Shown here: positions 31,890-47,621 of the stretch, piece by piece
How positions within the stretch are numbered: position 1 is the first letter of the stretch
How the letters are laid out: each line of letters opens with the position of its first letter
Source: Acidithiobacillus ferridurans
GTDB taxonomy: Bacteria; Pseudomonadota; Gammaproteobacteria; Acidithiobacillales; Acidithiobacillaceae
Length of the DNA: 64,000 bases
Direction: 5' to 3'
Assembly (NCBI RefSeq): GCF_003966655.1
Contig: NZ_AP018795.1
Span: 1,629,501 to 1,693,500 of the forward strand
Notes under the pieces: model-generated
Database searches by the model: none
The model's input: the letters and a program-made list of their open reading frames with translations, nothing else
Told to the model about the DNA's origin: nothing
Position numbers and translations under genes: made by a program

Positions 31890-31910
31890 TCACTCACAAG
31901 GAGTTTTTGC

Positions 31911-32432: not shown

Positions 32433-32496
32433 AGGTCTTGTCGCCCTGCGGTGAAGCAGGCAGACTGAGAGTGACTCGCTTATGCAGGAGAGCCCC

Positions 32497-32877: not shown

Positions 32878-32898
32878 TGGGCGGCAGTTATGGATGAG

Positions 32899-33882
32899 TT
32901 ACATATCCAGCGGGCTGATAATACCACGACCGCCTTTGTTCATGACGTGGGTATAAATCATAGTGGTATTTACGTCTTTATGTCCTAAAAGCTCCTGCAC
33001 GGTGCGAATGTCGTAGCCTGCCTGCAGCAGATGGGTTGCGAAGGAGTGGCGTAACACATGGGGTGTCACCGGCTTTACAATGCCGGCACGGCTTGCCGCA
33101 GTACGTATTGCGCGTTGTACCGTCGCCTCATAAATATGGTGCCGTCTTTGTACCCCGGAACGCGGATCAATACTTAATGCAGGAGACGGGAACACATACT
33201 GCCAGCCCCAGGATTGCGCACTGGAAGGATATTTCACCGCCAGCGCATCCGGCATAAAGACCGCCCCAAGACCGTTTTCTAAATCTGTATCATGCAGTAA
33301 TTTGGCCTTTTCCATTTGCTTTTTTAGGGGTAGTAGAATGTTTTCCGGTAAGACGGTCACCCGGTCTTTAGCCCCCTTACCATCCCGGATGACGATTTCG
33401 CGGCGTTCGAACTCCACGTCTTTTATCCGGAGGCGCAAACCCTCCAACAGACGCATACCCGTACCATAGAGCATGCTCGCGATGAGCCACATCGTTCCTG
33501 AGAGCTCGTGCAGTAAGGCGCGGGTTTCCGTTGGTGTCAGCACCACCGGCAGGTGCTGCGAAGGTTTGGCGCTGGTGATGTTATCCAGCCAGGGCAGGTC
33601 AATACCCAAAACCTGCTTGTAGAGAAAGAGCAGCGCCGCCTTGGCCTGATTTTGGGTAGAGGATGAGACGCTGCGTTCAGTGGCGAGATGGCTCAGGAAG
33701 GCCTCCACCTCGGCGGCACCCATGTTTTTGGGGTGCCGTTTCTGATGAAAAAGAATAAAGCGCCGCGCCCAGTCCGTATAGGCCTCTTCGGTGCGGATGC
33801 TGTAATGCATCACCCTGATCCGGGCACGCACCTGGTCCAGAAGCCTGGGCGGGGTGCTGGGAGTTGCTTGGCTATTTTCCAT
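32899..33882 (-). CDS. intI: Integron integrase IntI
   Basis: Tyrosine recombinase that moves gene cassettes between attI and attC sites. The 327-residue protein has the catalytic residues R144 (G-T-G-M-R-L-L-E), a lysine at about 169-172 (G-K-G-A-K-D-R), H275 and R278 (H-V-L-R-H-S), H301 and the nucleophile Y310. The integron-specific insert that sets IntI apart from XerC/XerD is at residues 207-250, with [16 protein letters not shown] and D-P-R-S-G-x-x-R-R-H-H. It is full length and without breaks, so likely active. It is transcribed away from the cassettes, as usual. Operator-like palindromes lie just upstream of its start. Confidence 0.96.
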
Positions 33883-33891
33883 CCCGAAAAT

Positions 33892-33916
33892 TTTAGGCTG
33901 TCCTAAATTTTTAGGA
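33892..33916 (-). promoter_or_regulatory. Operator-like palindromes at the intI start
   Basis: Three alternating half-sites lie 10-34 bases upstream of the intI ATG: TTTAGG (33892-33897), CCTAAA (33902-33907) and TTTAGGA (33910-33916). TCCTAAA at 33901-33907 and TTTAGGA at 33910-33916 form a perfect 7-base dyad with a 2-base gap. TTTAGG and CCTAAA pair across CTGT. Such a tight cluster over the expected ribosome or promoter region suggests repression, perhaps self-regulation; the binder is unknown. Confidence 0.45.
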
Positions 33917-34014
33917 AAGGGCGGTGTTTTGTAGATACAGTATGTTGGTTATTTATCATGTTGCGTTAGGCGCCATGTATGTGGTAGCGTTGTACAATCT
34001 AAATTATGTTGGGC
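33917..34014. other. Putative attI recombination site and cassette-array leader
   Basis: The first cassette begins within GTTGGGC at 34008-34014 (cut between G and TT), which defines the attI/cassette junction. A second core-like GTTAGGC lies at 33965-33971, 43 bases upstream. Both fit GTTRRRY. No strong sigma-70 promoter (Pc) reading into the array was recognised here, though TTGTAC (33990) with CATCAT 18 bases on is a weak candidate. The integrase-binding repeats of attI cannot be defined by eye. Confidence 0.6.
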
Positions 34015-34604: not shown

Positions 34605-34667
34605 GCCCAACCCGGCAGTCGAGAGGGACTGCGCAAAAGCGCGCAGCCCCTCACTTTTACGTTATGC
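34605..34667 (+). repeat. attC1 (cassette 1 recombination site)
   Basis: Inverse core GCCCAAC at 34605-34611 and core GTTATGC at 34661-34667, 63 bases. The centre pairs through GCGCG...CGCGC-type arms with the short loop AAAA. GCCCAAC is the exact complement of the cassette's own start GTTGGGC at 34008, as integron theory requires. Confidence 0.9.
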
Positions 34668-34764
34668 TTCAAAAACGTATCCGAACAGTTTGATGTCCGA
34701 AAACAACGAGAATTTATGCCACGTAAGAAGTTATAGATCCCACTCCATTATCTAGGAGGTTTCT

Positions 34765-35226
34765 ATGGTCAAGGTCTATTACAGTAGCGTCCTGAACCAA
34801 CCCGCAGATCGAGTTTGGGGTTTTGTTCGAGACTTCAACAGCTACCCGAGCTATATTGAAGGGGTTGCCGAGAGCGTTATTGAAGACGAGAAAAACGGTG
34901 ATGAAATTGGTGCTGTGCGACGCTTTCGTATAGGCCAAACTTGGAAGCGGCAGCGCCTGACTGCCCATTCTGACTCTCAGCGTTCATTCAGCTATGCGGG
35001 GATGGAACCAATCGAGTTCCCGTCGCATGGCGGCATCGATGCTCCAGCCGCCGCCAACTATGAGGGTACCTTGCGGCTCACGCCGATCGTAGATGGGAAT
35101 CGAACCTTCATTGAATGGTTTGTAGAACTCGATTGCACGCCAGAGGACGCCACCCAATGGAACGAATTGTTCACCAATCTAATCCCCAAGTGGGTAAATT
35201 CCTTGAAACGCGCCTTGGACGGCTAG
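34765..35226 (+). CDS. Cassette 2: SRPBCC (START/Bet v1-like) family protein
   Basis: Predicted 153-residue soluble protein of the SRPBCC fold, a helix-grip pocket that binds hydrophobic ligands. The N-terminal pattern V-Y-Y-S-S-V-L-N-Q-P-A-D-R-V-W-G-F-V-R-D is typical of polyketide-cyclase/START-like members, as is the late T-F-I-E-W-F-V-E-L-D strand. An AGGAGG lies 10 bases before the ATG, so the cassette carries its own strong ribosome site. About 100 non-coding bases lie between cassette start and gene. The ligand is unknown. Confidence 0.82.
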   Translation: MVKVYYSSVLNQPADRVWGFVRDFNSYPSYIEGVAESVIEDEKNGDEIGAVRRFRIGQTWKRQRLTAHSDSQRSFSYAGMEPIEFPSHGGIDAPAAANYEGTLRLTPIVDGNRTFIEWFVELDCTPEDATQWNELFTNLIPKWVNSLKRALDG

Positions 35227-35230
35227 TAAA

Positions 35231-35302
35231 GCATAACAATTCGCTGCAGCCGACCGTCATCCCGCTACGCGGTCTGCCGGCGGCTGAGCTCAAGCGTTAG
35301 GC
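35231..35302 (+). repeat. attC2 (cassette 2 recombination site)
   Basis: Inverse core GCATAAC at 35231-35237, core GTTAGGC at 35296-35302, 72 bases. The inverse core is complementary to GTTATGC, the start of cassette 2 (34661), exactly as expected. Confidence 0.92.
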
Positions 35303-35315
35303 ATGGGAGAGTGCT

Positions 35316-35873
35316 TTGGTTACGTTTAGCACAAAAGACTATTGGGGCAATCTGTTTGTCGTCTTCACCGTGCCCCTCCCCAATCGGCCTCCCGTCTTCA
35401 TGTCAATGAAAGTGACGGAATACAACAAGGACAAGTCCGGAGTTGTTATTATTGATCCCGAAAAATTTCTTGAACTTTGGCGTAATGAGCCACACAGCAT
35501 CCATAGGTCAGAAGCAAATGGCACCCCGCAAACGTGGCCGCATGATCGAAAGTATGGACATGCTGCGGAGGGCTTTTCTCACGGGTTTGATAACCCAGTT
35601 CCGCTAGCCTATGTCTCGCATGGCATCAGCACTCGAACCATTGTTTCGCACAGGTTCCTTTGGTTCGGGAAAAGTGTGCGCCACGAGCAGTTTCATTATG
35701 TTGGCTTTACGAACGGTATCACCAGAACGATCTGGTTGCTAACCCAAGGGTGCACTGCCTTTCCAGTCGAATGCGAAATGCCTGGAGCTAGAGAGCTACA
35801 CCGAGTAGCCGCCGCGCCAAACACGCATTTCTATACAGTTGGTGAACTCGCAGAGGTGGCATCACATGCCTAA
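35316..35873 (+). CDS. Cassette 3: hypothetical protein, possible plasmid fertility inhibition factor-like
   Basis: A 185-residue predicted soluble protein. The stretch W-R-N-E-P-H-S-I-H-R, then T-W-P-H-D-R-K-Y, then D-N-P-V-P-L-A resembles proteins labelled plasmid fertility inhibition factor (FiwA of RP4), which block conjugation of other plasmids. I base this on pattern memory only. There is no membrane helix and no enzyme motif that I recognise. The frame begins 14 bases after the attC2 core; a GGGAG-like ribosome site precedes the start. The stop lies inside the attC3 inverse core, as in typical cassettes. Confidence 0.6.
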   Translation: MVTFSTKDYWGNLFVVFTVPLPNRPPVFMSMKVTEYNKDKSGVVIIDPEKFLELWRNEPHSIHRSEANGTPQTWPHDRKYGHAAEGFSHGFDNPVPLAYVSHGISTRTIVSHRFLWFGKSVRHEQFHYVGFTNGITRTIWLLTQGCTAFPVECEMPGARELHRVAAAPNTHFYTVGELAEVASHA

Positions 35874-35936
35874 CCCATCATTCCACCGGACCTTGCGCAT
35901 AAAGCCGCGCAAGGCCGGTGAATTCAAACGTTAGCC
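35868..35936 (+). repeat. attC3 (cassette 3 recombination site)
   Basis: Inverse core GCCTAAC at 35868-35874, core GTTAGCC at 35930-35936, 69 bases. The inverse core complements GTTAGGC at the start of cassette 3. The left arm shares AACCCATCATTCC with a relic attC at 46656. Confidence 0.92.
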
Positions 35937-35958
35937 CTGCCAATCACAGAGCCATACC

Positions 35959-36390
35959 ATGACCGAAGTTATTGGAATTGACCATATCTATATCACCGTT
36001 TCCGATCTTAATCGCTCGGAGATTTTCTATGACCTCGTTTTATTAGAGGCACTGGGCTTTCGCAAAAACAAGTTCACTCTGGGCGGCGACCCTCACGTTC
36101 AATATTTCAACCGCCATTTTGGTTATGTCCTTCGGCCTTCGCGTACCGAAGCCGCACACGACTCATATTCCCCTGGGTTGCACCACTTCTGCCTCCGCGT
36201 TGATTCGGCGGAGGGAGTCGCTGCCGTAGCCACTCAGCTTCGTAGATCCGGCATCGAGGCATCGGAAGCTAAGCTCTATCCTGATTACGCCCCTGACTAT
36301 TGGGCAACATTCTTCACCGACCCCGACGGCATCCGTCTTGAGGTCACGAATTACCGGCTGGAACGCCGAGAGCGCCATGACGGTTGGTAA
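35959..36390 (+). CDS. Cassette 4: VOC family (glyoxalase/dioxygenase fold) protein
   Basis: A 143-residue vicinal-oxygen-chelate protein. It has the N-terminal metal-site pattern G-I-D-H-I-Y-I-T-V-S-D-L and a C-terminal F-T-D-P-D-G-I-R-L-E-V-T in which the Glu would be a ligand. The middle H-H-F-C-L-R-V-D-S supplies another potential histidine ligand. Such proteins include glyoxalase I, dioxygenases and antibiotic-binding or -opening proteins such as the fosfomycin and bleomycin types. The substrate cannot be predicted. VOC proteins are common integron cargo; a second one is in cassette 9. Confidence 0.85.
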   Translation: MTEVIGIDHIYITVSDLNRSEIFYDLVLLEALGFRKNKFTLGGDPHVQYFNRHFGYVLRPSRTEAAHDSYSPGLHHFCLRVDSAEGVAAVATQLRRSGIEASEAKLYPDYAPDYWATFFTDPDGIRLEVTNYRLERRERHDGW

Positions 36391-36396
36391 AAGCAG

Positions 36397-36460
36397 GGCT
36401 AACACTACATTCGAGCGGGACGCGCCAAAAGCGGCGCGCCCCTCAATTTGAACGTTAGGT
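36397..36460 (+). repeat. attC4 (cassette 4 recombination site)
   Basis: Inverse core GGCTAAC at 36397-36403, core GTTAGGT at 36454-36460, 64 bases. The inverse core complements GTTAGCC at the start of cassette 4. The stem reads GGGACGCGCC...GGCGCGCCCC with extra unpaired bases, as usual for attC. Confidence 0.93.
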
Positions 36461-36478
36461 TTCACAAGGACGCATCCT

Positions 36479-36868
36479 ATGGCACAAATAAAAATTTATG
36501 GCCTAAAATCTTCGCTATTGGAAAAGACTTCTTCACTTTCATCTGCGATTCACGCAGCGATCGTCGAAGCACTGGTATTTCCTCCCGATAAAAAATTCCA
36601 CCGGTTCATCGCGCTAGAAAAATCGGAGTTCATCTTTCCGGAAGATCGCAGTGACAACTACACGATTATTGAAATTTCAATGTTCGAGGGTCGATCAGCC
36701 GAATCAAAAAAATCGCTTATTCGCCTAATTTTTGCCAACATCGAGCGTGATGTAGGCATTGCACCGCAAGACGTAGAAATCACTATCACTGAGACGCCAA
36801 AACAAAATTGGGGTATTCGCGGTATATGCGGCGATGAGTTGGCTTTGGGGTACAAAGTCAATGTGTAA
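36479..36868 (+). CDS. Cassette 5: tautomerase-fold family protein lacking Pro1
   Basis: A 129-residue protein with the beta-alpha-beta pattern of the 4-oxalocrotonate tautomerase/MIF superfamily: I-K-I-Y-G at the start, a long helix with L-S-S-A-I-H-A-A-I-V-E-A-L, and a second unit with Y-T-I-I-E-I-S-M-F-E-G-R-S-A-E-S-K-K. The C-terminal part E-I-T-I-T-E-T-P...N-W-G-I-R-G fits tautomerases of integrons. The family nucleophile or base is an N-terminal proline after Met removal. This protein begins M-A-Q, so classical tautomerase chemistry is not expected. The role is unknown. Confidence 0.75.
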   Translation: MAQIKIYGLKSSLLEKTSSLSSAIHAAIVEALVFPPDKKFHRFIALEKSEFIFPEDRSDNYTIIEISMFEGRSAESKKSLIRLIFANIERDVGIAPQDVEITITETPKQNWGIRGICGDELALGYKVNV

Positions 36869-36926
36869 CCTAACCTTGCATTCAAGAGGGACGCGCTAAA
36901 GCGCGCCCCTTAATTTAACGTTATAC
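36868..36926 (+). repeat. attC5 (cassette 5 recombination site)
   Basis: Inverse core ACCTAAC at 36868-36874, core GTTATAC at 36920-36926, 59 bases, the shortest in the array. The inverse core complements GTTAGGT at the start of cassette 5. It shares GGACGCGCTAAAGCG (36889-36903) with the relic attC at 46672. Confidence 0.92.
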
Positions 36927-36938
36927 AAAAGGAAGAGT

Positions 36939-37718
36939 ATGGCTAAGCCGGGGACAGACTTTGAGGACTACGTCCACTACATCTACAGCACCCTTCTAAA
37001 CTTGAAGGGTGAGAAGGTGCGCGTATCCAAGCGTACGACATTCAAATTACCATCCGGTGAGTCTTATGAGGTTGACGTATTCTATGAATTCATTCACGTT
37101 GGTGTAAGGCATCGCGTAGCCATTGAGTGCAAGGACTGGAAGTCCCCCGTTAGCCAAGGACAGATTTTAGAATTCCACCAAAAGATTAAAAATATTGGTG
37201 ATGACGTGGTCGGGATCTTCGTGTCACGTTCTGGTTACCAGTCAGGCTCGAATGCTGTAGCTGCACGGCATAAGATACGCCTACTCGAAGCCAAAGATGT
37301 GCCGACAATTCATGGCATGTTATCTCAGCATATAACAACAAGCTTTATTCCAGAAGATGGCTGCATCGGCGAACCTTTTTGGTATGTGGCAGAGCTAGAT
37401 CGTCCTGATGGTGAACCAACCGGAACGTACTATGCTTTTCCAGAAGACAGTCCGATAAATATACCGCTATTTATCTCGAAGCAATACGCGTTGAAATTTC
37501 ACGCTTCGCTTCCCGATAAAGATAAATTTAAAGTATATGGCATGGCTCAACATAAGCTTCGAGGATTACTTGCTTTCGCAATACCGCAGAAAATATCATT
37601 TGGAATAGTGTTCAATTATCCGACAAGCAATGGTGGTCTAAAGATAAAACCATTGAGTGCGATGGAATTAAAAAACGACTACCTTTTACTAGACGTCCCA
37701 AAGAGTCTAGAAAAATAA
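36939..37718 (+). CDS. Cassette 6: Mrr-like restriction endonuclease fold protein
   Basis: A 259-residue protein with a PD-(D/E)XK nuclease core in the first 130 residues: E9 in T-D-F-E-D-Y-V, D52 in Y-E-V-D-V-F-Y-E-F, and E-C-K at about residues 70-72 (A-I-E-C-K-D-W). This is the Mrr-like arrangement of modification-dependent or general DNA cleavage enzymes. The C-terminal 130 residues are mixed strands and match no domain I know; they may recognise the target. No methyltransferase is nearby, so a solitary defence nuclease is plausible. The base composition is clearly lower in GC than the backbone. Confidence 0.75.
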   Translation: MAKPGTDFEDYVHYIYSTLLNLKGEKVRVSKRTTFKLPSGESYEVDVFYEFIHVGVRHRVAIECKDWKSPVSQGQILEFHQKIKNIGDDVVGIFVSRSGYQSGSNAVAARHKIRLLEAKDVPTIHGMLSQHITTSFIPEDGCIGEPFWYVAELDRPDGEPTGTYYAFPEDSPINIPLFISKQYALKFHASLPDKDKFKVYGMAQHKLRGLLAFAIPQKISFGIVFNYPTSNGGLKIKPLSAMELKNDYLLLDVPKSLEK

Positions 37719-37756
37719 ATAGTGTCACAGGAGGTGCCACGGGGTGCGAGTCGTGT

Positions 37757-37776
37757 GTATAACTATTCGGTCAACC
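37757..37776 (+). repeat. attC6, truncated by IS66
   Basis: Only the inverse core GTATAAC (37757-37763) and about 13 further bases remain. It complements GTTATAC, the start of cassette 6 (36920), so it is the left arm of attC6. The IS66 terminal repeat begins at 37777 and no right arm or core is found on the far side of the element. Confidence 0.85.
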
Positions 37777-37816
37777 GTAAACGTTCAGCCAACCCACCCT
37801 TGCGGGTTGGCGCCAA

Positions 37817-39454
37817 TCAGGCTAATGCAGATTTTTTCCAGTTCCACGGCAAGAGTTCGTGGAGTTTTTTGTTGGGCCAGGTCGGGAGCTTTTCGAGCAC
37901 GTCACAGAGGTACGCGAAGGGCTCGATGCCGTTGAGTTTGCACGTTTCGATGATGCTGTAGAAGGACGCGGCACGCTCGCCACCGGCATCATTTCCAACA
38001 AATAAAAAATTCTTGCGACCAATGGCCACGCCCCGCAGCGCTCGCTCCACCGGATTATTATCGATGCTGAGTTGTCCTTCTTCGAGGTAGAGCGTCAGTG
38101 CTTTCCAACGCTTCAGCGCATAGCCGATGGCTTTAGCGATGCCACTTTTCGGCGCCACCTGCATCTGGGTTTCCGTGAGCCAGGCATGGAAGGCTTCCAG
38201 CAGGGGACCGGCACGCTGCTGCCGGGCGGCGACTTTCTGATCTGGTAGAGATTCCTTGATCTCCGCTTCGATGGCGTAGAGTTTGACGATCCAGGCCAGG
38301 GCCTTCTGGGCTACCGGACTGGGACCCCGCTGTTCCACGTCATAGAAGTGGCGGCGGACATGCGCCCAGCATCCCGCTTCGATGATCTGTTCCTTGCGGT
38401 AGAGGGCATCATACCCCCCATAGTCATCGGTCTGGAGAATGCCTTTCCAGTCGCCCAGGAAGTGTTGCGCGTGGATCCCCTTACGGTCCGGGGCATAATC
38501 AAAGACCACGACGGGATGCGGGGCATCCGCCTGGCTGCGATACACCCAGAGATAGGCTTTGTCCGTCTTGCCGCTGCCGGGGTTGAGGACGGGCAAGGGC
38601 GTCTCGTCGGCGTGCAGAATCTTTCCTTCCAGCAAGGCCCTTTTGCAGGCTTCGGCGAGCAGGCTGATCCAGTATTCGCCCTGACCCAGCCAGCTGCAGA
38701 GGGTGGCGCGAGAGATCGGTACGCCCGCTCGCTGGTACTGGGTTTCCTGCCGGTACAAAGGCAGGTGATCCACGTGTTTCGCCGTCATCACATGGGCCAC
38801 CAGGCGCGCCGTGGGCAAGCCCTTGTCAATCACCTGTGCCGGTAATGCCGGACTTTCGAGGGTACCGCAGGGGCGGCAGACCAGTTTGGGGCGGATATGG
38901 CGAATCACCTGGAAGCGTCCGGGGATATAATCCAGTTTTTCGCTGATCTCTTCCCCGACCGTTTCGAGTGGACCCCCACATTGCGCGCAAGTGCAAGTCT
39001 TGGGATCGTGACGTACTTCTACCCGGGGCAGATGGGCGGGGATCGCCATGCGGCCGGGGTGCCGGCGTACGGGACGGGCGGGGACCGCTACGGTCTGCGC
39101 GTCGGCGGCTGCTCCCTCTGCACGGCCAGCGGTCACGGCCGCACTGTCTTCCAGAACGGTTTCGAGGAGGCTTTCCATCGCCGCGATTTCGGTATCCAGC
39201 GCTTCTTCCCAAAGACTGATCTGGTCGGGAGAGAGCTTTTCCGAACGGCGTCCGAATCGCCAGCGCTGCAGTTTGGCGATGGTGCTTTCCAGGCGGGCGA
39301 TGGTTTCATCGCGCAGGGCAATGGCCGCTTGCTGTTGGGCGATGATCCGGGTGCGTTCCGCTTCCTGTTCCTCCTGCTGTTGCAGCAGGCTCAGCACCAG
39401 ATCGCGCAGGGCGTCCGGGCTGGTGGGAAGAGGCGTTTGCGGCGCTGAAATCAT
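37817..39454 (-). CDS. tnpC: IS66 transposase TnpC (DDE)
   Basis: The transposase proper, 545 residues. An N-terminal coiled-coil-like Gln/Glu-rich stretch (residues 10-60) precedes R-R-S-E-K-L-S-P-D-Q, a typical IS66 motif. A C-x-C...C-x-x-C zinc knuckle (T-C-T-C-A-Q-C, then V-C-R-P-C-G) follows. The catalytic core has H-A-D-E-T-P-L-P-V and, later, the D-D-Y-G-G-Y-D and N-N-P-V-E-R-A-L-R motifs. It looks complete. The stop lies 40 bases inside the left terminal repeat. Confidence 0.95.
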   Translation of the reverse strand: MISAPQTPLPTSPDALRDLVLSLLQQQEEQEAERTRIIAQQQAAIALRDETIARLESTIAKLQRWRFGRRSEKLSPDQISLWEEALDTEIAAMESLLETVLEDSAAVTAGRAEGAAADAQTVAVPARPVRRHPGRMAIPAHLPRVEVRHDPKTCTCAQCGGPLETVGEEISEKLDYIPGRFQVIRHIRPKLVCRPCGTLESPALPAQVIDKGLPTARLVAHVMTAKHVDHLPLYRQETQYQRAGVPISRATLCSWLGQGEYWISLLAEACKRALLEGKILHADETPLPVLNPGSGKTDKAYLWVYRSQADAPHPVVVFDYAPDRKGIHAQHFLGDWKGILQTDDYGGYDALYRKEQIIEAGCWAHVRRHFYDVEQRGPSPVAQKALAWIVKLYAIEAEIKESLPDQKVAARQQRAGPLLEAFHAWLTETQMQVAPKSGIAKAIGYALKRWKALTLYLEEGQLSIDNNPVERALRGVAIGRKNFLFVGNDAGGERAASFYSIIETCKLNGIEPFAYLCDVLEKLPTWPNKKLHELLPWNWKKSALA

Positions 39455-39503
39455 CAGAAAATAGTATCGGAACTGGGCTATTTATACAAGAAATTCCCGC
39501 TAG

Positions 39504-39851
39504 TTACAGCAGTGTTGGTGTGCATTTTTCCAGGCTCGGTAACGGCGTCCACGGGCGCCCCTCTACCAGCATCGCCCACTGCGCAGCGGAGAGTTCTATG
39601 GCACCGGCATCGGCGCGGGGCCAATGGAGTCGTCCCTGATCCAGACGGCGATACACCAGCCAGAAGCCCAGTCCATCCCACAGTAACAATTTCAGACGAT
39701 CCCCTCGGCGGTTGCGAAAGACAAAAGCATGACCGCAAAAAGGATCGGCAGCCAATACCCCCTGTACCTTGGCCGCCAGGCCATCAAAGCCTAACCGCAT
39801 ATCTACGGGCGCTGCCGCGAGCCAGATCCGGCTGCTCGAATTTAGCCACAT
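39504..39851 (-). CDS. tnpB: IS66 accessory protein TnpB
   Basis: IS66 ORF2 protein of 115 residues, needed for efficient transposition; its exact job is not settled. The family pattern P-V-D-M-R-L-G-F-D-G-L-A, F-V-F-R-N-R-R-G-D-R-L-K-L-L-L-W-D-G and Y-R-R-L-D-Q-G-R is clear. It overlaps the end of tnpA by 10 bases and is followed by tnpC after 49 bases. Confidence 0.95.
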   Translation of the reverse strand: MWLNSSSRIWLAAAPVDMRLGFDGLAAKVQGVLAADPFCGHAFVFRNRRGDRLKLLLWDGLGFWLVYRRLDQGRLHWPRADAGAIELSAAQWAMLVEGRPWTPLPSLEKCTPTLL

Positions 39852-40174
39852 GGTCTTTCCAGAATCTGCACCAAGGTCTGGAGCCAGCTGGTATCTACCG
39901 GCGCCGCAAGCTTCAGGCTACGACCGGATAACAGGTGAATTTCCACCGGTGAAACAGGCGTCCTGACCGGCGCGGCCAGAGTTACCGGCAAAAACCCTTC
40001 GGGCACGGCGGACAGCAACGGCGTTTGTATAGAATCGGCAAAGCGTTTGCGCCAGTAATGCAGCGTGGCTACGGCGATCCCCGCCTGCGCACAATAATTC
40101 TTGACCGACTGTCCGCTCGCCTGAAATCCCTCTACCTGCTGCCGCCAATAAGCGACTTTCTCTTCTTTCTTCAT
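39842..40174 (-). CDS. tnpA: IS66 accessory protein TnpA
   Basis: IS66 ORF1 protein of 110 residues with an N-terminal helix-turn-helix-like region (Y-W-R-Q-Q-V, then Y-C-A-Q-A-G-I-A-V-A-T-L-H-Y-W-R-K-R-F). It is thought to bind the element's ends. The ATG at 40174 is preferred over 40180, because the GGAGG ribosome site is then at a normal distance. Confidence 0.92.
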   Translation of the reverse strand: MKKEEKVAYWRQQVEGFQASGQSVKNYCAQAGIAVATLHYWRKRFADSIQTPLLSAVPEGFLPVTLAAPVRTPVSPVEIHLLSGRSLKLAAPVDTSWLQTLVQILERPCG

Positions 40175-40193
40175 CACCATCCCTCCGCGCTGA

Positions 40194-40775
40194 ATGCAGA
40201 TCAGGATCGGTCAGGTCAGGAAATTTGGGAAGGTGGGTTGCTTAGACGCTTACAAATGGTCGAATCTCCCTACGTCCCCTGGTGTTTACTGGTGGTATTT
40301 CCCACGCATAGCACTTGATCATTTTCGCATTGCCGAATTCTGTGACGTCACGAAACTACGGTTACGGACCGCGCCAGATGGCAAAGTGTGCCTCTATCAC
40401 GGTTTAGCTAAGAGCATCGCACAGCGCGTGGAATGGCATGCAGCTCAAAAGTTAACATTGAGTTGCTTACAGACCGGTTTCCTCTCGACCTTCCGGTTTA
40501 CTCTTCTTGCCCTGAACGACTTTGATTACTCGGAAGGAGCGGAAAAGATCGACAAGTATTTCGACGCTCTCTCTGTCAGTTGGCGATCGACGACGACAAG
40601 GGAAGATGCAGAATCCATCGAGTGTAACGAGCTTCATGGCGAATACCATTACCCACTCAACATTCAAGGGAACAAACGGCCTGAACTATTAGCTTTTACC
40701 CGCCATTTGAAGGCCATGCGAAGCGCCTACAAAAAACGATATATCAGTAGTAGTGACCATCATTGTGCGAAGTGA
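40194..40775 (+). pseudogene. Cassette 7a: GIY-YIG-like protein, 5' end replaced by IS66
   Basis: The frame runs from inside the IS66 end; only codons from 40254 belong to the cassette, so the original start is lost. The remaining 173 residues begin S-P-G-V-Y-W-W-Y-F-P and continue with C-L-Y-H-G-L-A-K-S-I-A-Q-R-V-E-W-H, which follows the GIY-YIG nuclease pattern (G-V-Y, then Y-x-G with R and H downstream). The fit is partial and the call tentative. It overlaps the DUF6884 gene by some bases, so the two form a single cassette. A chimeric protein of 193 residues is possible. Confidence 0.5.
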
Positions 40776-40776
40776 G

Positions 40777-41226
40777 ATGACAATGCAATCCAACAATTCC
40801 ACTATCTATCTTGTTTCTTGTGTCAGCAAAAAACGAAATCAACCATGCGCGGCACGTGATTTGTATATTTCTGATTGGTTCATCAAGGCGCGTCGATATG
40901 CAGAATTATCTTTATATCCATGGTATGTGCTATCTGCCGAGTACGGTTTGGTTCCTTCCGATCAAATAATTGCACCATATGAGCGAACGCTCAACACGAT
41001 GAGGGTGGTGGATCGCCGATCTTGGGCCGATCATGTATCCCTTCAAATCTCGGAAGCCGCTCCAGACTTGAAACAAGTGGTGTTCTTGGCAGGTGTGCGG
41101 TATCGTGAGTTCTTGACCAGCCACCTTTCCGATAGGGACGTAAAAGTATCGATCCCAATGGAAGGGCTGCGAATCGGAGAGCAACTGAGTTGGCTTTTAC
41201 AGCACACCTCGTTGTCTGTAGATTAA
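40777..41226 (+). CDS. Cassette 7b: DUF6884 protein
   Basis: A 149-residue protein with the DUF6884 pattern: I-Y-L-V-S-C-V-S-K-K-R (Cys and Lys conserved), D-L-Y-I-S-D-W-F, then Y-V-L-S-A-E-Y-G-L-V, then I-A-P-Y-E-R-T-L. The fold resembles the YaaA-type and may bind nucleic acid or a nucleotide, but no reaction is established that I know of. The start could be the GTG at 40753, ATG 40777 or ATG 40783. It is preceded by the GIY-YIG-like frame within the same cassette. Its attC site follows 10 bases behind the stop. Confidence 0.75.
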   Translation: MTMQSNNSTIYLVSCVSKKRNQPCAARDLYISDWFIKARRYAELSLYPWYVLSAEYGLVPSDQIIAPYERTLNTMRVVDRRSWADHVSLQISEAAPDLKQVVFLAGVRYREFLTSHLSDRDVKVSIPMEGLRIGEQLSWLLQHTSLSVD

Positions 41227-41236
41227 TGGTCAAGCG

Positions 41237-41296
41237 GCCGAACAATTCATTCAATCCGACGCCGCTTCGCGGCGCGGATTAATTCAAATGTTAGGC
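41237..41296 (+). repeat. attC7 (cassette 7 recombination site)
   Basis: Inverse core GCCGAAC at 41237-41243, core GTTAGGC at 41290-41296, 60 bases, with a GACGCCGC-TTC-GCGGCGCGG central hairpin. The inverse core predicts that cassette 7 began TTCGGC; that start is missing, consistent with loss beside IS66. Confidence 0.9.
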
Positions 41297-41316
41297 ACCA
41301 AGGAACAATAGACACG

Positions 41317-41769
41317 ATGATGCAACTTACTTCTGCAAATACTTCGGACATCCCAGCACTTTGCGCATTGCTGGATATCTTGTTTTCTCAAGAAGCAGAG
41401 TTTAAACCCGATCACGAAGCACAAAGCCGTGGCTTAGCTCGCATCCTTAGCAATCCAGAAATTGGGCTTATCGTTGTCGCTCGTCAAGACAGCCAAGTGA
41501 TCGGTATGGTTAATCTTCTCTACACAGTATCTACGGCGCTCGGCGAGCGCGTCGCGCTACTGGAAGATATGGTAGTGTCCCCCGCCGCTCGCGGCGCTGG
41601 TGTTGGTTCTCGGCTCCTGGAGCAAGCTATTCAATTCGCGCGCTTGAACGGGTGCAAACGCATTACCTTGCTCACAGACTGCGCGAATGAATCAGCGCAA
41701 CGATTTTATCAAAGGCATGGTTTCGGTTTTTCGGCCATGATCCCTCTTCGTCTTTCGCTGGGCGAATAG
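41317..41769 (+). CDS. Cassette 8: GNAT-family N-acetyltransferase
   Basis: A 150-residue acetyltransferase that uses acetyl-CoA. Motif A is L-E-D-M-V-V-S-P-A-A-R-G-A-G-V-G-S-R-L-L-E, with the R-G-A-G-V-G pyrophosphate loop; motif B ends in F-Y-Q-R-H-G-F. The N-terminal half has the strand L-I-V-V-A-R-Q-D-S-Q-V-I-G-M-V. The substrate is open; known integron GNATs often act on aminoglycosides or on unknown amines. The start follows about 20 bases behind the cassette boundary. Confidence 0.9.
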   Translation: MMQLTSANTSDIPALCALLDILFSQEAEFKPDHEAQSRGLARILSNPEIGLIVVARQDSQVIGMVNLLYTVSTALGERVALLEDMVVSPAARGAGVGSRLLEQAIQFARLNGCKRITLLTDCANESAQRFYQRHGFGFSAMIPLRLSLGE

Positions 41770-41777
41770 GTTGCTAT

Positions 41778-41840
41778 GCCTAACATGGCATTCGAGCGAG
41801 ACGCGCCATAAGCGGCGCGCCCCTCAACTTTACGTTAGAC
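41778..41840 (+). repeat. attC8 (cassette 8 recombination site)
   Basis: Inverse core GCCTAAC at 41778-41784, core GTTAGAC at 41834-41840, 63 bases. It complements GTTAGGC at the start of cassette 8. Its stem (GACGCGCC...GGCGCGCCCC) closely copies attC4. Confidence 0.93.
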
Positions 41841-42407: not shown

Positions 42408-42580
42408 GTCTAACAACAGCATGCAGCGGACGGCGCTGCGCGCCCGCGAACGAGAAGCGAGTGGTACGAACATCTGGGCGGCGGGCGGACACCGCTACGC
42501 GGCTTCGCTCGCGTGAGCCTCCGCGCACTTCGTGCCCTACGGCCTCAGGCGGGTGCCGCACAACTCGCACCTCGTTATGC
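42408..42580 (+). repeat. attC9 (unusually long, 173 bases)
   Basis: Inverse core GTCTAAC at 42408-42414 complements GTTAGAC at the start of cassette 9; core GTTATGC at 42574-42580. The 159 bases between hold several GC-rich inverted segments. Other sites here are 59-72 bases, so this one is longer by about 100 bases. Confidence 0.88.
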
Positions 42581-42605
42581 ACCCATTAACAGATAGGAGT
42601 CTTTT

Positions 42606-43019
42606 ATGAATGCAAAGTATTCTGGGCAGTGTCTTTGTGGGGAGATCAGTTATTCAGTTGATATTGAGCCAATGTTTACTGGAAATTGTCATTGCAAAGA
42701 CTGTCAAAGATCATCAGGCAGTGCATTCATTCCGGCGATGATTTTCCCTGAGAAAGATGTTGTTGTTTCAGGTGAAGCAAAATATTTTGAGTCTCAGGCA
42801 GACAGCGGAAATATGCACAAAAGAGATTTCTGCCCGAATTGTGGTTCTCAATTGTTCGCACGGTTCAGCAGTATGCCAGGGATGCTGGGTATAAAGGCTG
42901 GAACTTTAAATGACCCATCAAATTATGTTCCAAAGTTAGATTTCCATGTAGGTAGTGCTGCGCCTTGGGACTTTATGAACCCAGAGCTACCTAAAAAGCA
43001 TGGGGCTGCGCAAAGCTAA
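42606..43019 (+). CDS. Cassette 10: GFA-family (glutathione-dependent formaldehyde-activating enzyme-like) protein
   Basis: A 137-residue zinc protein of the GFA/CENP-V family. The zinc ligands show as C-L-C-G-E-I (residues 9-11) and C-H-C-K-D-C-Q, then D-F-C-P-N-C-G-S. The order and spacing fit the family closely. Members include a formaldehyde adduct-forming enzyme, but most are untested. The cassette has lower GC than the backbone. AGGAG lies eight bases before the ATG. The attC behind it is broken. Confidence 0.9.
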   Translation: MNAKYSGQCLCGEISYSVDIEPMFTGNCHCKDCQRSSGSAFIPAMIFPEKDVVVSGEAKYFESQADSGNMHKRDFCPNCGSQLFARFSSMPGMLGIKAGTLNDPSNYVPKLDFHVGSAAPWDFMNPELPKKHGAAQS

Positions 43020-43026
43020 CGATAGT

Positions 43027-43060
43027 ACATAACAATCTAATCAAGCCGGGCTTACGAAAT
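43027..43060 (+). repeat. attC10, eroded
   Basis: ACATAAC (43027-43033) differs by one base from the expected GCATAAC, the complement of the cassette-10 start (42574). The usual AATC-AATCAAGCCG left arm follows, but the central stem and the right core are missing. Cassettes 10 and 11 are therefore joined without a working site. Confidence 0.6.
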
Positions 43061-43538
43061 GACATCGAACTTTTCCATACAAAGAGCAACTGCAAGTGAT
43101 GCCCATGAAGTCGCCATCATGGTGGGTGAATTACTGCACGAAATTATGAGTGCAATTGGTATGCAGGCCTTCAATTTCAATCTTCATGAAACATCGGCCA
43201 AGCTGAAAGATTTCATTGACCGAGAGAAGTACTTTGTTTTTATCGCCATAGGGGGGAATACAAGCCAAATGGGCTTTATTGCGCTTTACGAAAGCTACGC
43301 GTTATATGCTGAGGGCGCCTTTGGTACGATTGCAGAGCTATTTGTGCGTCCAGGCTACCGGTCACAAGACATAGGACAGCGCCTTATAGAGCAAGCAAAG
43401 TTGTTCGGCAACTCGCGCGGTTGGAAGCGACTAGAAGTTACGACTCCTCCACTCCCACAGTTCGACAGAACACTCGCCTTTTACGAGAAGGAAGGGTTCG
43501 CAATTACGGGCGGTCGCAAGTTAAAGGTTGCTTTGTGA
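43059..43538 (+). CDS. Former cassette gene: GNAT-family N-acetyltransferase
   Basis: A 159-residue GNAT protein. The acetyl-CoA loop is in L-F-V-R-P-G-Y-R-S-Q-D-I-G-Q-R-L-I-E-Q-A and the late C-terminal pattern has T-P-P-L-P-Q-F-D-R-T-L-A-F-Y-E-K-E-G-F. The gene starts directly after the eroded attC10. No attC is seen after its stop; a lone GTTAGCT lies at 43577. Its 3' end overlaps, on the other strand, the tail of the GNAT toxin, so array and flanking DNA have been joined here. Confidence 0.88.
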   Translation: MTSNFSIQRATASDAHEVAIMVGELLHEIMSAIGMQAFNFNLHETSAKLKDFIDREKYFVFIAIGGNTSQMGFIALYESYALYAEGAFGTIAELFVRPGYRSQDIGQRLIEQAKLFGNSRGWKRLEVTTPPLPQFDRTLAFYEKEGFAITGGRKLKVAL

Positions 43539-44071
43539 CACAAGACATCAGAATCTGTTTTGTCGGAGATTCGTTCGTTAGCTTTGACGGTACTCACGCG
43601 CAGCATCAACGTCATCGGATGTTGTGGTGACTCCTGAAAGCCGTAGTGCTCATAGAACTGTTTGGCGCGTTCGTGGAGCGCATGAACCAGCAAAGCGCGA
43701 ACTCCGGTGTTCTGCGATACGGTGATGGCCCGATTCACCGCGTCTTGCAGCATGGCTGCCCCCAGTTTGATGCCTTGTGCCCGTCGATCCACCGCCAGCC
43801 TGCCAAGCACCATGACGGGAACCGGATCGGGCATATTGCGACGAACCGAGCCGGTCGCCAGTTGATGAGAGACCGCACCAGCTGACATGGAGTAGAAGCC
43901 ACGCACACGATTTTCTTCATCAACGACCACAAAACTCCTGCTGGCGCCAGTGAGCTGGTTGTTCATCGCCCGGCGTTTGAGCCACTCCTCCAGAGCAGGC
44001 TCTCCGCACTCAAAGTCGCCCAACAGATGCGTCGCGGCAAGTGGTTGCGGCGAGGATAGCTTCAAGCTCAT
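43481..44071 (-). CDS. GNAT-type toxin of a TacAT/AtaRT-like toxin-antitoxin pair
   Basis: Toxins of this kind acetylate aminoacyl-tRNA and stop translation. The 196-residue protein has the expected F-x-C-G-E-P-A-L-E-E-W-L-K-R-R-A start pattern and L-G-R-L-A-V-D-R-R-A-Q-G-I-K-L-G at the acetyl-CoA loop, then F-Y-E-H-Y-G-F-Q-E-S-P. The normal fold ends around residue 168 (M-T-L-M-L-R-V). The last 25 to 30 residues come from the opposite strand of the GNAT cassette and are probably a junction artefact. The ATG at 44071 overlaps the antitoxin by 4 bases; the open frame starts at 44089. Confidence 0.85.
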   Translation of the reverse strand: MSLKLSSPQPLAATHLLGDFECGEPALEEWLKRRAMNNQLTGASRSFVVVDEENRVRGFYSMSAGAVSHQLATGSVRRNMPDPVPVMVLGRLAVDRRAQGIKLGAAMLQDAVNRAITVSQNTGVRALLVHALHERAKQFYEHYGFQESPQHPMTLMLRVSTVKANERISDKTDSDVLCHKATFNLRPPVIANPSFS

Positions 44072-44328
44072 GCTGGATTGCTTTCCCATGGCGCCTTGAC
44101 CGCCATCAACCGCTCAAGACCCTCATTGGCGCGTGGCGGCGCATCAAGCATGGCGGTGAACTGCCGGAATTTTTCCGCATCCAGCCCAAAGAACACCTGA
44201 TCGAGCAGCACCGATTGCGCACGCTCGCCGGCGGCTTCCAGCATGAAATCGGAACGGTTTTTGCCCAGCAGGTGGGCGGCGTGGTCAATGAGATCACGTT
44301 GTTCCGGCTGGGCGTTGGGCATTCTCAT
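44068..44328 (-). CDS. DUF1778 antitoxin
   Basis: Partner of the GNAT toxin, 86 residues. The P-E-Q-R-D-L-I-D-H-A-A-H-L-L-G-K-N-R-S-D-F helix is typical of the ribbon-helix-helix DNA-binding part of DUF1778/TacA; the C-terminal half neutralises the toxin. The N-terminal beta-strand (usually an L-x-L/I-R-x stretch) is shorter than usual, with just M-R-M-P-N-A-Q before it. A stop codon lies a few codons upstream in frame. DNA binding might be weaker, or another start is used. It precedes the toxin in a typical four-base overlap. Confidence 0.85.
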   Translation of the reverse strand: MRMPNAQPEQRDLIDHAAHLLGKNRSDFMLEAAGERAQSVLLDQVFFGLDAEKFRQFTAMLDAPPRANEGLERLMAVKAPWESNPA

Positions 44329-44478
44329 GGCTAGCGGCTAAACTTGGCGCATGGCACCTACTATTTTCCTTCAAGGGGCATTTCGCTTTTTCTTTTTTTC
44401 ACGCGAAGAACCACGAATACACGTTTATGTTACTCATACCGATGGTGAAGCCAAATTTGGGTTGGAGCAGAAATTGAG

Positions 44479-44943
44479 TTGGCATTGAACCAAGGGCTTT
44501 CTCAAAAACAGGTCGGCGAGGCGTTGGCTCTGGTTCACGCCCATCACGAGGAGGCCAAGCGTCTGACCTTTGCCACACCGGGCAAGGATGCCGAAACCAT
44601 CGCGCGCTTTACCGATGACTTGCGGGTTCATGGTGGAGATGCCGAGGCGATCCAGGAAGTCAGCATGGACCTGTCCCCTGCCTTCCAGAAAGGGGGAAAA
44701 GAGCATTTGCCCAATGCTCAGATGACTTTTGATCGTTTCCACCTGATGAAACTGGTCAACACTTTGCTGAAGGTCTGGGGGGGAGATGCTAAGGCCAGCG
44801 GTCTGCCCCCTCTGGTCAAGGTGGCCTACACCATCATGAATCACTGGGACGGCTTCTTGCACTGGTTTGATAGCCACATCACCAACGGCATTCTGGAGGG
44901 GTTCAACCTGCTGCAATCCGCTAAATCCAAGGCACGCGGCTAG
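44479..44943 (+). pseudogene. ISL3-family transposase fragment
   Basis: The 154-residue frame contains two pieces of an ISL3 (IS204/IS1001/IS1165) transposase: D-L-S-P-A-F-Q-K-G-G-K-E-H-L-P-N-A-Q-M-T-F-D-R-F-H, and S-H-I-T-N-G-I-L-E-G-F-N-L-L-Q. The normal protein has about 100 more residues between them and further residues at both ends, so this is an internally deleted relic. The catalytic Asp in M-D-L-S-P and D-R-F-H is still present. No terminal repeats were identified. The relic reads directly into a P-type ATPase fragment. Confidence 0.8.
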
Positions 44944-45315: not shown

Positions 45316-45402
45316 GAACTGCTTTTCTTGGCACGGTCTAGACTTTTACCGTTGATTGCTTTTAAATTAATTCTAGTATTGTTCCTGTTCGTGGAGGAGT
45401 TT

Positions 45403-46536
45403 ATGGAAAAGGCAGGTAGTCTACATGCGCGGAAACGGCATAGGTTGGCCGCCGCCCGTACGGTTTTGGCGGCGGCCGTTGGTTTTGGTGGAATCGCTGT
45501 AGCCTTCGCCTTCGGTGGCGAGTTCCCCTCGAAGGTTCCGGTACCAGCAAACAACCCCATGACACCCCAAAAAATCTCTCTGGGTAAGCAGTTGTTTTTT
45601 GATCCACGACTATCCCTTACCGGCGATGTCTCCTGTGAAACCTGTCATAATGTCATGGGCAACGGCAGTGACGGCTTGCCACTTTCGTTCGGCGTGCTTG
45701 GCCGGGTGGACACCCCTCGTCACGCGCCATCGGTATTTAATGCCGCCTTCAATACCGTGCAGTTCTGGGACGGACGAGCCGATAGCCTAGAGGCTCAGGC
45801 CAAAGGCCCCATCCTCAACCATGTGGAAATGGGCATGCCGAATGCAGCAGACCTGGTCAAACGCCTGCAGGAAATACCTGGCTATCGCGATGAATTTCGC
45901 AAGGTATTCGGTGACAAGGACCCTATCACCTTCGACCATGTTGTACAGGCTATAGCCACTTATGAGCGCACTCTGGTAACGCCAGACAGTCCCTATGACC
46001 GCTACGTCAAAGGCGACAAGGCAGCACTTAGCAGTAGCGCCATAGAGGGCATGAAAACAATCCGCTCGTTTGGATGTGAGTCATGTCACGCCGGACCGAT
46101 GTTCGACAATCCCGGTACGCCCATGGGGACTGGTTGGTTTCAGAAATTCCCGGTGCAGCCACACAATCCGGTCTGTGCCAAATACGTACAGAAATATCAT
46201 CTCATGGACGATCCTGGTCGTTTCGATGTGACCCACAAAGCGGTAGACATGCATGTATTCAAGGTCCCTAGTTGGCGCAATGTCGCTCTGGAAGCGCCCT
46301 ATTTCCAAAATGGCTCCGTGCGCACCCTGCAAACCGCGGTGCGGGTCATGGCTGCCTGTCAGTTGGGCCTGACGGTCACGAATAAGCAGGTGAGCGATAT
46401 CGTTTCCTTTTTAGATAGCCTCACCGGGAAATTTCCCAAGGAGACCATGCCAACCCTTCCAGAGACGCCTAACACTACCATTATGATGAATGTTTCTCGA
46501 TTGCAAAAAGTGGCAGTAGAAAATGAGAAGAAGTGA
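45403..46536 (+). CDS. Diheme cytochrome c peroxidase (CcpA/MauG family)
   Basis: Periplasmic enzyme that reduces hydrogen peroxide to water with electrons from c-type cytochromes. The 377-residue preprotein has an N-terminal hydrophobic segment at about 20-37 (signal or anchor), heme site 1 C78-E-T-C81-H82 and heme site 2 C225-E-S-C228-H229. The motif F-W-D-G-R-A is diagnostic, and H-A-P-S-V-F-N lies between the hemes. The ATG at 45403 follows GGAGG; the frame is open upstream to 45328. It could serve peroxide defence in an iron- or sulfur-oxidising acidophile. It stands alone, with a dyad upstream. Confidence 0.93.
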   Translation: MEKAGSLHARKRHRLAAARTVLAAAVGFGGIAVAFAFGGEFPSKVPVPANNPMTPQKISLGKQLFFDPRLSLTGDVSCETCHNVMGNGSDGLPLSFGVLGRVDTPRHAPSVFNAAFNTVQFWDGRADSLEAQAKGPILNHVEMGMPNAADLVKRLQEIPGYRDEFRKVFGDKDPITFDHVVQAIATYERTLVTPDSPYDRYVKGDKAALSSSAIEGMKTIRSFGCESCHAGPMFDNPGTPMGTGWFQKFPVQPHNPVCAKYVQKYHLMDDPGRFDVTHKAVDMHVFKVPSWRNVALEAPYFQNGSVRTLQTAVRVMAACQLGLTVTNKQVSDIVSFLDSLTGKFPKETMPTLPETPNTTIMMNVSRLQKVAVENEKK

Positions 46537-46651
46537 ATTCTACTAGGGGCGGTTAGAAATCTCATCCAAGGAGCAAAAGGTATGCAACAACGTTCGGCAC
46601 CCCAGGAAACTATTGGCACCCCAGCCAAGCTTTGTTCCCATTGATTTCCAA

Positions 46652-46700
46652 GTCAAACCCATCATTCCGGCGGACGCGCTAAAGCGTGCCGCTGGATTCA
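46652..46700 (+). repeat. Relic attC-like site
   Basis: GTCAAAC at 46652-46658 fits the inverse core RYYYAAC only loosely. It is followed by AACCCATCATTCC (46656-46668), identical to attC3, and by GGACGCGCTAAAGCG (46672-46686), identical to attC5. The arms TCC-GCGG-ACGC and GCGT-CCGC-GGA pair with a loop and bulges. The right core is not found; intron-like sequence begins just after it. This is a cassette-site remnant about 3.6 kb beyond the last cassette. Confidence 0.6.
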
Positions 46701-46703
46701 CCG

Positions 46704-46930
46704 GTGTGTGCCGGGCATGGCACATAGCTACCCAGGTGCGAGTCCTGGGGCCAGGTTTCCGCAGAGCCGAAGGCAAGGGGGAGGGCAAGGGCGTTGTCGC
46801 GACACAGGGTCTGAAGGAAGTTGGCTCGACTCCAACGCTGCGGGGCGATGAACAAAAACCGGATAGGAGGCGTGGTGCATCTGGGACGAGCGGGTATATG
46901 ACCGCGAAGTCCTCCATCTGCGGTTGTTGG
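46704..46930 (+). ncRNA. 5' fragment of a group II intron (domain I)
   Basis: The stretch starts with GTGTG, as group II introns do (GUGYG), and resembles the 5' part of bacterial group II introns: an early GGCATGGCACA hairpin, GCAAGGGCGTTGTCGCG, TCTGAAGGAAG, ATGAACAAAAACCGGAT and GGTGCATCTGGGACGAG. No reverse transcriptase frame and no domain V (GAGCCG...AAGTCGC...) follow; the next gene starts at 47013. It is therefore a truncated relic. It sits directly behind the relic attC. Class assignment would need a structural alignment. Confidence 0.65.
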
Positions 46931-47012
46931 GATGCACTTTGTAAATCCGGCGGCAGCGCAGAAAGTGATGTTTTGCTTGATCACACTCACCCCTATCCCG
47001 AATAGATTTTTA

Positions 47013-47621
47013 ATGTCCGATTCCACGACGTATGGTGATCCTCTTACCGCGCTACTCGCTCGTGTTCGCCATTGCGAACTTTGCGCCGGGCAGCTGCCGC
47101 TTGGTGCGCGTCCGGTGCTGCAGATGGATTCGCGCGCCCGTATTTTGATCGCTGCGCAGGCTCCGGGCAGGAAGGTGCACGAAACAGGTATTCCCTTCAA
47201 CGATGCCAGCGGCGATAGGCTTCGTACCTGGCTGGGTATCTCCCGAGAGGTATTCTACGACGCCCGACAGGTGGCGCTCGTGCCCATGGGATTCTGCTAC
47301 CCAGGCACCGGAACGTCCGGAGACTTGCCGCCGCGGCCAGAGTGCGCTCGTGTCTGGCATGGGGAGTTACTGCCGCATTTGCAGCATCTGCAACTCACTC
47401 TGGTCATCGGCCAGTATGCCCGGGCTTATCACCTTCCTGCCGAGGCCGGAACGCTGACGGAGGTGGTTCATGCATGGCGCGAAAACTGGCCCAACCGCAT
47501 ACTGCTGCCGCATCCCAGCCCGCGTAATAATCTGTGGCTGAAGCGCAATCCGTGGTTCGAGAAAGAACTCATTCCGGCGCTTCAGGCGCGTGTTGCCGAG
47601 GTGCTTGCGCAGGACCGTTGA
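47013..47621 (+). CDS. Uracil-DNA glycosylase superfamily protein
   Basis: A 202-residue protein of the uracil-DNA glycosylase fold. Typical landmarks are H-C-E-L-C, I-A-A-Q-A-P-G-R-K-V-H-E-T-G-I-P-F-N-D-A-S-G-D-R-L-R, P-M-G-F-C-Y-P-G and the late H-P-S-P-R-N-N-L-W. The motif G-Q-A-P-G is the catalytic loop region of the family. The group differs from classical Ung and may excise uracil or another damaged base; the substrate is not shown by sequence. The ATG at 47013 is used. It follows the intron relic and precedes selO on the opposite strand. Confidence 0.82.
   Translation: MSDSTTYGDPLTALLARVRHCELCAGQLPLGARPVLQMDSRARILIAAQAPGRKVHETGIPFNDASGDRLRTWLGISREVFYDARQVALVPMGFCYPGTGTSGDLPPRPECARVWHGELLPHLQHLQLTLVIGQYARAYHLPAEAGTLTEVVHAWRENWPNRILLPHPSPRNNLWLKRNPWFEKELIPALQARVAEVLAQDR

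Follow-up and report, generated by a model that had tools for sequence, protein, structure and literature searches.

Integron integrases make use of the bottom strand of attC sites, and the group II introns of class C are devoid of endonuclease. As described in PMC7923331, the introns of the IIC-attC type enter this bottom strand at the R'' box, mostly at TTGT/T, in an orientation opposite to that of the cassettes. The same text cites as an unusual case, "not a IIC-attC", a IIC intron from Enterobacter cloacae (Rodriguez-Martinez 2012) which occupies the top strand of attC and is oriented like the cassettes. In addition, one same-orientation intron in Shewanella algae KC-Na-R1 is reported in PMC9229058.

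The 64-kb window, i.e., the whole stretch of DNA that was analysed, belongs to a 2.92-Mb genome in a single contig and contains the remnant of a group II intron inserted in a relic attC. An earlier note on this DNA had related the remnant to the IIC-attC type, but it does not fit the type as published (bottom strand, antisense, TTGT/T at R''): the relic intron is oriented in the sense of its DUF2442 cassette gene and occupies the top strand of the attC, with a CGGT/T junction at the core of the R' box. According to the main reading, to which a probability of about 0.85 is given, a complete chromosomal integron had the R' core of its last attC split as GT/TRRRY by a sense, top-strand IIC intron, which would have arrived by way of a proposed pairing between EBS1 and a CGT exon and then decayed. 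At the level of sequence, the attC, the intron, its 5' junction and orientation, the covariation of EBS1 with the exon and the sister relics can be read directly, and the 3' junction of the relic is well supported.

The relic attC and its intron remnant

The window carries a complete integron, consisting of an integron integrase gene (intI; G000:C1:1662405-1663343 in the genome, by its TIGR02249 match) and at least seven attCs (34605 to 41840) in an array broken up by an IS66 element (Table 1). An ISL3 transposase fragment and a cytochrome c peroxidase gene separate the last cassettes from the relic. A GNAT-family gene and a TacA-type antitoxin gene occur on the minus strand at 43481-44334, between the array and the ISL3 fragment. 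A second intron fragment occurs in an attC of the same genome (G000:C1, about 2036.2-2037.5 kb, locus L060), close to a small piece of an integrase gene of the integron type, and this site probably corresponds to a second, ruined integron.

Table 1. Features of the integron and of the relic site, with their positions in the window.
Feature	Position	Strand	Basis or remark
intI, complete integron integrase gene	32905..33843	-	TIGR02249 469.6 bits, above curated cut-off; Pfam Phage_integrase and Phage_int_SAM_4
Array attC	34605..34667	+	R''/R' motifs and symmetric hairpin
Array attC	35231..35302	+	motif/hairpin scoring
Array attC (attC3 of the earlier note, by 13 shared bases)	35868..35936	+	
Array attC	36397..36460	+	motif/hairpin scoring
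Array attC (attC5 of the earlier note, by 15 shared bases)	36868..36926	+	
Array attC	41237..41296	+	motif/hairpin scoring
Array attC	41778..41840	+	motif/hairpin scoring
ISL3-family transposase fragment, later intrusion	44479..44943	+	Pfam DDE_Tnp_ISL3
Di-haem cytochrome c peroxidase gene, not a cassette; parts present array from relic	45328..46536	+	Pfam CCP_MauG
DUF2442 cassette gene, 3' end	46619..46682	+	stop codon inside attC loop
attC 5' part: R'' GTCAAAC (46652-46658), hairpin, GT of R' (46704-46705)	46652..46705	+	
Group IIC intron 5' part (domain I region)	46706..46973	+	RF02001; 85% to the L063 intron
Intron 3' end remnant CCCCTATCCCGA	46990..47001	+	12/12 to L063 nt 1632-1643; same remnant in G010 (L040)
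attC 3' part: TAGAT, completing R' as GT|TAGAT, exact GTTRRRY	47003..47007	+	same TAGAT in G010
Uracil-DNA glycosylase (UDG) gene, chromosomal array boundary	47013..47618	+	Pfam UDG (longer frame from 46932)

The relic attC, assessed by homology to the attCs of the sister genome G004, by its R''/R' motifs and by folding, displays the organization of an integron attC, with both motifs surrounding a hairpin, a cassette gene ahead of it and intI in the window. Its R'' box differs from RYYYAAC by a single mismatch, and its 5' part ends in ...CACCGGT. The bases which the earlier note had seen to be shared with two attCs of the array are indeed present, 13 nt (AACCCATCATTCC) in common with the attC at 35868-35936 and 15 nt (GGACGCGCTAAAGCG) with that at 36868-36926. 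The fold of the 81-nt stretch 46640-46720 is surpassed by one of 200 dinucleotide shuffles (z -2.8). The tail of the cassette gene, whose reading frame was compared by eye, exhibits 80-91% identity over 53-183 nt with three G004 loci and one G010 locus, and the G010 homologue is a DUF2442 gene (55.6 bits). The same cassette end with its attC is free of intron at the three G004 loci, two of which (L057 and L058) end in GTTRRRY with one mismatch, and bears an intron in G010. Since the 3' flank brings no significant gain in folding to the rejoined attC, 570 of 2000 random 7-mers being equally good, the assignment of R' relies on the exact GTTRRRY motif and on the homology with G010.

The intron starts at 46706 (GTGTGCCGGGCATGG), immediately after the attC as the earlier note had proposed, and its first bases GTGTG fit the GUGYG 5' end of group II introns. 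The covariance scan suggested in that note yielded the group-II-D1D4-3 model (RF02001) at 46793-46973, with 84.8 bits compared to a gathering score of 32, as the sole Rfam match at gathering scores in the 64-kb window, and the suggested comparison with sister strains revealed fuller introns in attCs. In this respect, window 46706-46971 aligns with nt 1-262 of the 1644-nt copy of G008 (L063) with 85% identity, and a similarity due to chance is rejected on both grounds. The relic was described as truncated, without reverse transcriptase or domain V. Both absences hold, that of domain V for the Rfam scan of the window, but the truncation does not: a simple loss of the 3' part is rejected by the 12-base 3' remnant at 46990-47001, which points to an internal deletion of about 1.37 kb as measured on the 1644-nt copy. 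The relic thus extends to 47007, beyond the 46930 of the earlier note. The tail match to L063 is not significant by itself (E = 0.18); G013 and G007 carry intron 3' ends of 120 nt in the corresponding position. The usual ..AY 3' end is replaced by CCCTATCCCGAA in the relic and in G010, compared to CCCTATCCCGAT in the full-length relatives, and this variant is a decay change of one base. Matches to the domain V model and reverse transcriptase frames are seen among the relatives, and the relic is a dead descendant of group IIC introns; within the genus itself, none of the introns could be confirmed as complete and as encoding an intact reverse transcriptase.

The uracil-DNA glycosylase gene and the array end in sister genomes

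The UDG gene has been found in 10 of the 17 genomes of the genus, source genome counted, and its ATG is located 10 bases past the intron end in G000, G010, G013 and G007. Intron pieces with differing internal losses precede the same UDG gene in G014, G010, G013 and G007. The G013 contig successively comprises a formaldehyde-activating-enzyme cassette (window 42573-43046), a HicBA-like cassette (recognized by eye), an attC, intron pieces and UDG, and is devoid of a peroxidase gene between the cassettes and UDG. The G010 contig comprises the integron flank (window 30268-32896 and 33818-34010), an intron-bearing attC, a stretch running into ISL3, and the DUF2442 cassette with its attC and intron, the sequence of window 44309-44553, which enters the ISL3 fragment, directly preceding the DUF2442 cassette. 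A second G010 contig begins with further intron pieces and UDG, and we infer that both contigs are contiguous. In G010 (L041, 2179-5000), both flanks of intI have been kept and intI itself is gone, so that this array without integrase arose by deletion.

In G010 and G013 the peroxidase gene is situated within or on different contigs, and no copy of it was detected in G014. The relic attC occurs downstream of none of the seven sister peroxidase loci (L042, L044, L051-L055) within the stretch read, with only 264 nt readable in G013. Owing to these layouts of G013 and G010, to the presence of the peroxidase gene elsewhere and to the lack of a downstream attC, UDG is regarded as marking where the array formerly ended, and the peroxidase gene as a later arrival in this strain. 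The idea that the array once reached 46.7 kb is thus retained as far as the relic is concerned and refined, the array having most likely extended to about 47.0 kb, up to the UDG gene.

Whether a single insertion accounts for the intron ahead of UDG is a separate question of history, and a compatible alternative to one event is that intron copies residing in different attCs have recombined, a course which is quite conceivable but which we are somewhat inclined to doubt. The exons upstream of the intron differ, consisting of the DUF2442 attC in G000 and G010, of the HicBA-like cassette in G013 (by eye) and of the 3' end of another intron in G014, while the same UDG follows, and intron copies within an array form direct repeats, such as the two copies located 661 nt apart in G010. 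The same picture would nevertheless result from cassette exchange by the integrase upstream or from ordinary deletions, and G010 is joined from its two contigs by deduction. In G014 (L046, 3727-4611), a 3' piece (nt 1318-1842) abuts nt 1-354 of another intron just before UDG, with zero bases between them; the exon bases GAT of this junction do not fit an EBS1 ACG, so that recombination or another route is likely there. In G002 (L059, 1629-1701), the DUF2442 tail is joined to an intron 5' end and the attC hairpin is missing, by deletion of the palindrome.

Insertion site, orientation and EBS1 pairing among the relatives

The search for intron starts by pattern gave 25 hits, reduced to 21 in the genus and family after removal of three chance hits (L041, L073, L079) and of L066, which lies outside the family. 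The exon ends in CGT at 18 of these 21 intron 5' ends and 15 pass the attC test. Because an attC and its reverse complement share their end motifs, the strand has to be fixed by the cassette gene. On the same strand, which is the only one covered by this count, an ORF of at least 50 aa ends 52-112 nt upstream of 17 of the 21 starts, the ORF counted in L046 being that of the neighbouring intron itself. Where both ends are seen, the exons often read ..CGT|intron|TRRRY, which corresponds to the R' core of the top strand of attC, and most of the relatives examined share the orientation of the cassettes.

A larger set was gathered by a profile search of genome contigs with an alignment of three IEPs, from which 80 of the 444 passing loci were kept. 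Among the 45 sites of the CGT class with both junctions, the rejoined GTTRRRY is exact in 14, with one mismatch in 18, two in 9 and three in 4, compared to one mismatch in 1, two in 2 and three or more in 11 of the 14 sites with other exons. Of the 58 sites assigned to the CGT class (exons CGT or CGC, and CAT in one), 33 pass the attC test, compared to 0 of 29 others, but the test is crude, and its threshold of 0.28 and the exon labels were fixed after the sites had been seen. Some of the CGT-class sites that fail are attCs by eye, whereas several copies of gamma proteobacterium HdN1, L120 and L124 correspond to hairpins without a clear R''. HdN1 harbours six CGT-class copies in one chromosome (L107-L110, L131, L155), several of them located after such hairpins. 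For the same 58 sites, 44 have an ORF on the same strand whose end lies 40-140 nt upstream, but in 16 an opposite-strand ORF stops within 140 nt downstream. Among plasmids, the sense orientation is confirmed by annotated genes, the introns of pR148 and pPp47 following aadA1 and aac(6')-Ib4, respectively. The Shewanella algae plasmid NZ_CP033574 matches like pR148, and one may guess that its strain is KC-Na-R1. Five other plasmid contexts with group II introns contain no integron in their annotation, and a distant DNA search of plasmids gave 14 records, none of them leading to S.ma.I2.

The pairing with the exon was assessed from an alignment of the first 330 bases, or of the remainder, of 89 introns. 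Leaving out the relic and the G014 tandem copy, a single column of domain I, located in a hairpin loop of RF02001, is complementary to exon positions -3 to -1 in 80 of 87 introns (G-U allowed) and represents the best of all columns; for non-CGT exons it fits 27 of 31, compared to 10 of 29 for the next best. The intron triplet ACG of EBS1 pairs with the exon CGT, and within the genus the exon CAT of L067 faces an EBS1 ATG, i.e., a compensatory change. The EBS1 loop of the relic is mutated, reading TATA where relatives have CACG; its EBS1 is now ATA facing an exon GGT, and the pairing is therefore lost. In the seven scored attCs of the window, a C precedes the core GTT at the top-strand R' in 6 of 7 and at the bottom-strand R'' in 0 of 7; 11 attCs oriented by ORFs point in the same direction in a small sample (8 on the top strand, 2 on the bottom strand). 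As C precedes GTT mostly at R', an EBS1 reading ACG might alone suffice to account for insertion at R' rather than R''.

The relic might alternatively derive from a classical IIC-attC intron (bottom strand, R'' TTGT/T, antisense), which is improbable. Its intron does target an attC, and the IEPs of its lineage are 45-49% identical to that of Kl.pn.I3 among the best matches listed. However, the intron of pP378-IMP, which its authors designated Kl.pn.I3, runs antisense to blaIMP-4 and has a 5' exon TTGT and an EBS1 ACAA (by eye), whereas the relic intron points in the direction of its cassette gene and its kin combine an exon CGT with an EBS1 ACG. Among 398 genomes scanned by pattern, TTGT precedes an intron start in 2 and CGT in 6, source genome included. 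The two TTGT genomes (G248, G256) harbour introns cut short in the sequence seen (L168, L169/L189). L168 stops at a contig edge, and its upstream sequence, judged by eye, resembles the bottom strand of an attC, probably the classical bottom-strand type; L189 showed no frame for a reverse transcriptase.

The intron lineage and its described relatives

An IEP match was obtained for 87 loci (80 from contigs and 7 from plasmids), of which 67 entered a tree together with 3 rows of the genus and family, giving 70 IEPs; the other 20 were left out as their 5' end was not found or as they were fragments or copies from one genome. The protein of L069, from another genus of the family, is short of 19 residues. 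In this "quick" tree, one branch (SH-aLRT 96) separates 41 rows with CGT/CGC exons from 28 others, so that one change suffices, compared to 21.8 changes on average with shuffled exon labels. According to the record titles, the CGT rows come from Pseudomonadota, Nitrospirota, Gemmatimonadota, Thermodesulfobacteriota, Myxococcota and others, many of them as metagenome bins. Once Kl.pn.I3, the sole IIC-attC reference in the tree, is added on its long branch (1.88), CGT needs 2 changes, though a topology that keeps the CGT rows together without Kl.pn.I3 is not rejected (p-AU 0.562). The 28 other rows are set apart by a branch (97), and Kl.pn.I3 is placed on its CGT side, a position in keeping with a classical origin of the relic. 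Several of these 28 introns follow T-rich terminators. Derivation of the relic from a terminator-type IIC intron inserted after an ordinary terminator hairpin of the peroxidase gene is the least credible reading of all. In its favour, IIC introns mostly insert after terminators according to PMC4424553, the hairpin stands behind that gene and RF02001 is blind to the intron subtype. Against it, 46619-46700 is a DUF2442 cassette end with attC in G004 and G010, the sister peroxidase loci give no match downstream in the stretch read, and the 5' exon is devoid of the T-run of many other-exon introns.

Under the preferred reading of a sense insertion at R', the intron RNA and its reverse transcriptase would recognize the hairpin formed by the top strand of attC, EBS1 ACG would pair with the exon CGT, and reverse splicing would occur there into the single-stranded top strand in the course of retrohoming; one base, the C before GTT, would set the choice of the strand. 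IIC-type introns are reported in PMC4424553 as primed at replication forks. As the insertion parts GT from TRRRY, the R' box is divided, and cassette excision would be lost in consequence of this division. Owing to its sense orientation, the intron could form part of array transcripts and be removed from them by splicing, a route closed to an antisense intron. Later on, some 1.37 kb of interior would have been lost, EBS1 mutated and the peroxidase gene moved in upstream.

A broader proposal, towards which the balance tips only slightly, is that a distinct IIC lineage spread across phyla has become adapted to the attC top strand. Its EBS1 ACG, instead of ACAA, would select R' over R'', its sense introns would remain spliceable, and recombination between its direct repeats would exchange or remove groups of cassettes, the relic being a fossil at a fixed integron end. 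If such a lineage repeatedly enters the top strand, top-strand hairpins of attCs must form often enough in cells to serve as a niche for a retroelement, and three base pairs of the intron RNA would choose the strand. The relic itself is decayed and would illustrate the long-term result, in which the last attC is split and then eroded while the boundary gene stays put; its interest resides in the lineage behind it.

A literature search covering papers other than the primary ones of 2009-2012 yielded no description of a top-strand lineage and none of an Acidithiobacillus integron with a group II intron. We regard the relic as a decayed representative of a variant of the attC-targeting group IIC introns that uses the top strand, its novelty being provisional. 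With the terminator-type IIC introns, its lineage shares the RNA class and the position of EBS1, but these introns have other exon triplets, no site passing the attC test and a place on the opposite side of the IEP tree from the CGT class. The likeness to S.ma.I2 and Kl.pn.I3 includes a class C type reverse transcriptase, the attC target and a GT/T insertion in a GTT core after a hairpin, and EBS1 of Kl.pn.I3 is located at the same place of domain I, with ACAA facing TTGT (by eye). This type is described as antisense at R'' TTGT/T in PMC7923331, whereas the lineage of the relic is sense at R' CGT/T. The E. cloacae intron, compared by its citing description in PMC7923331, resembles this lineage in its top-strand location and sense orientation. 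The introns of pR148 and pPp47 are like those of the relic lineage, sense and inserted at R' (CGT|TAGATG; L081, L082) with an EBS1 ACG, and their IEP is 63% identical to P0001 by alignment; they are full-length introns of mobile class 1 integrons, whereas the relic is a chromosomal remnant.
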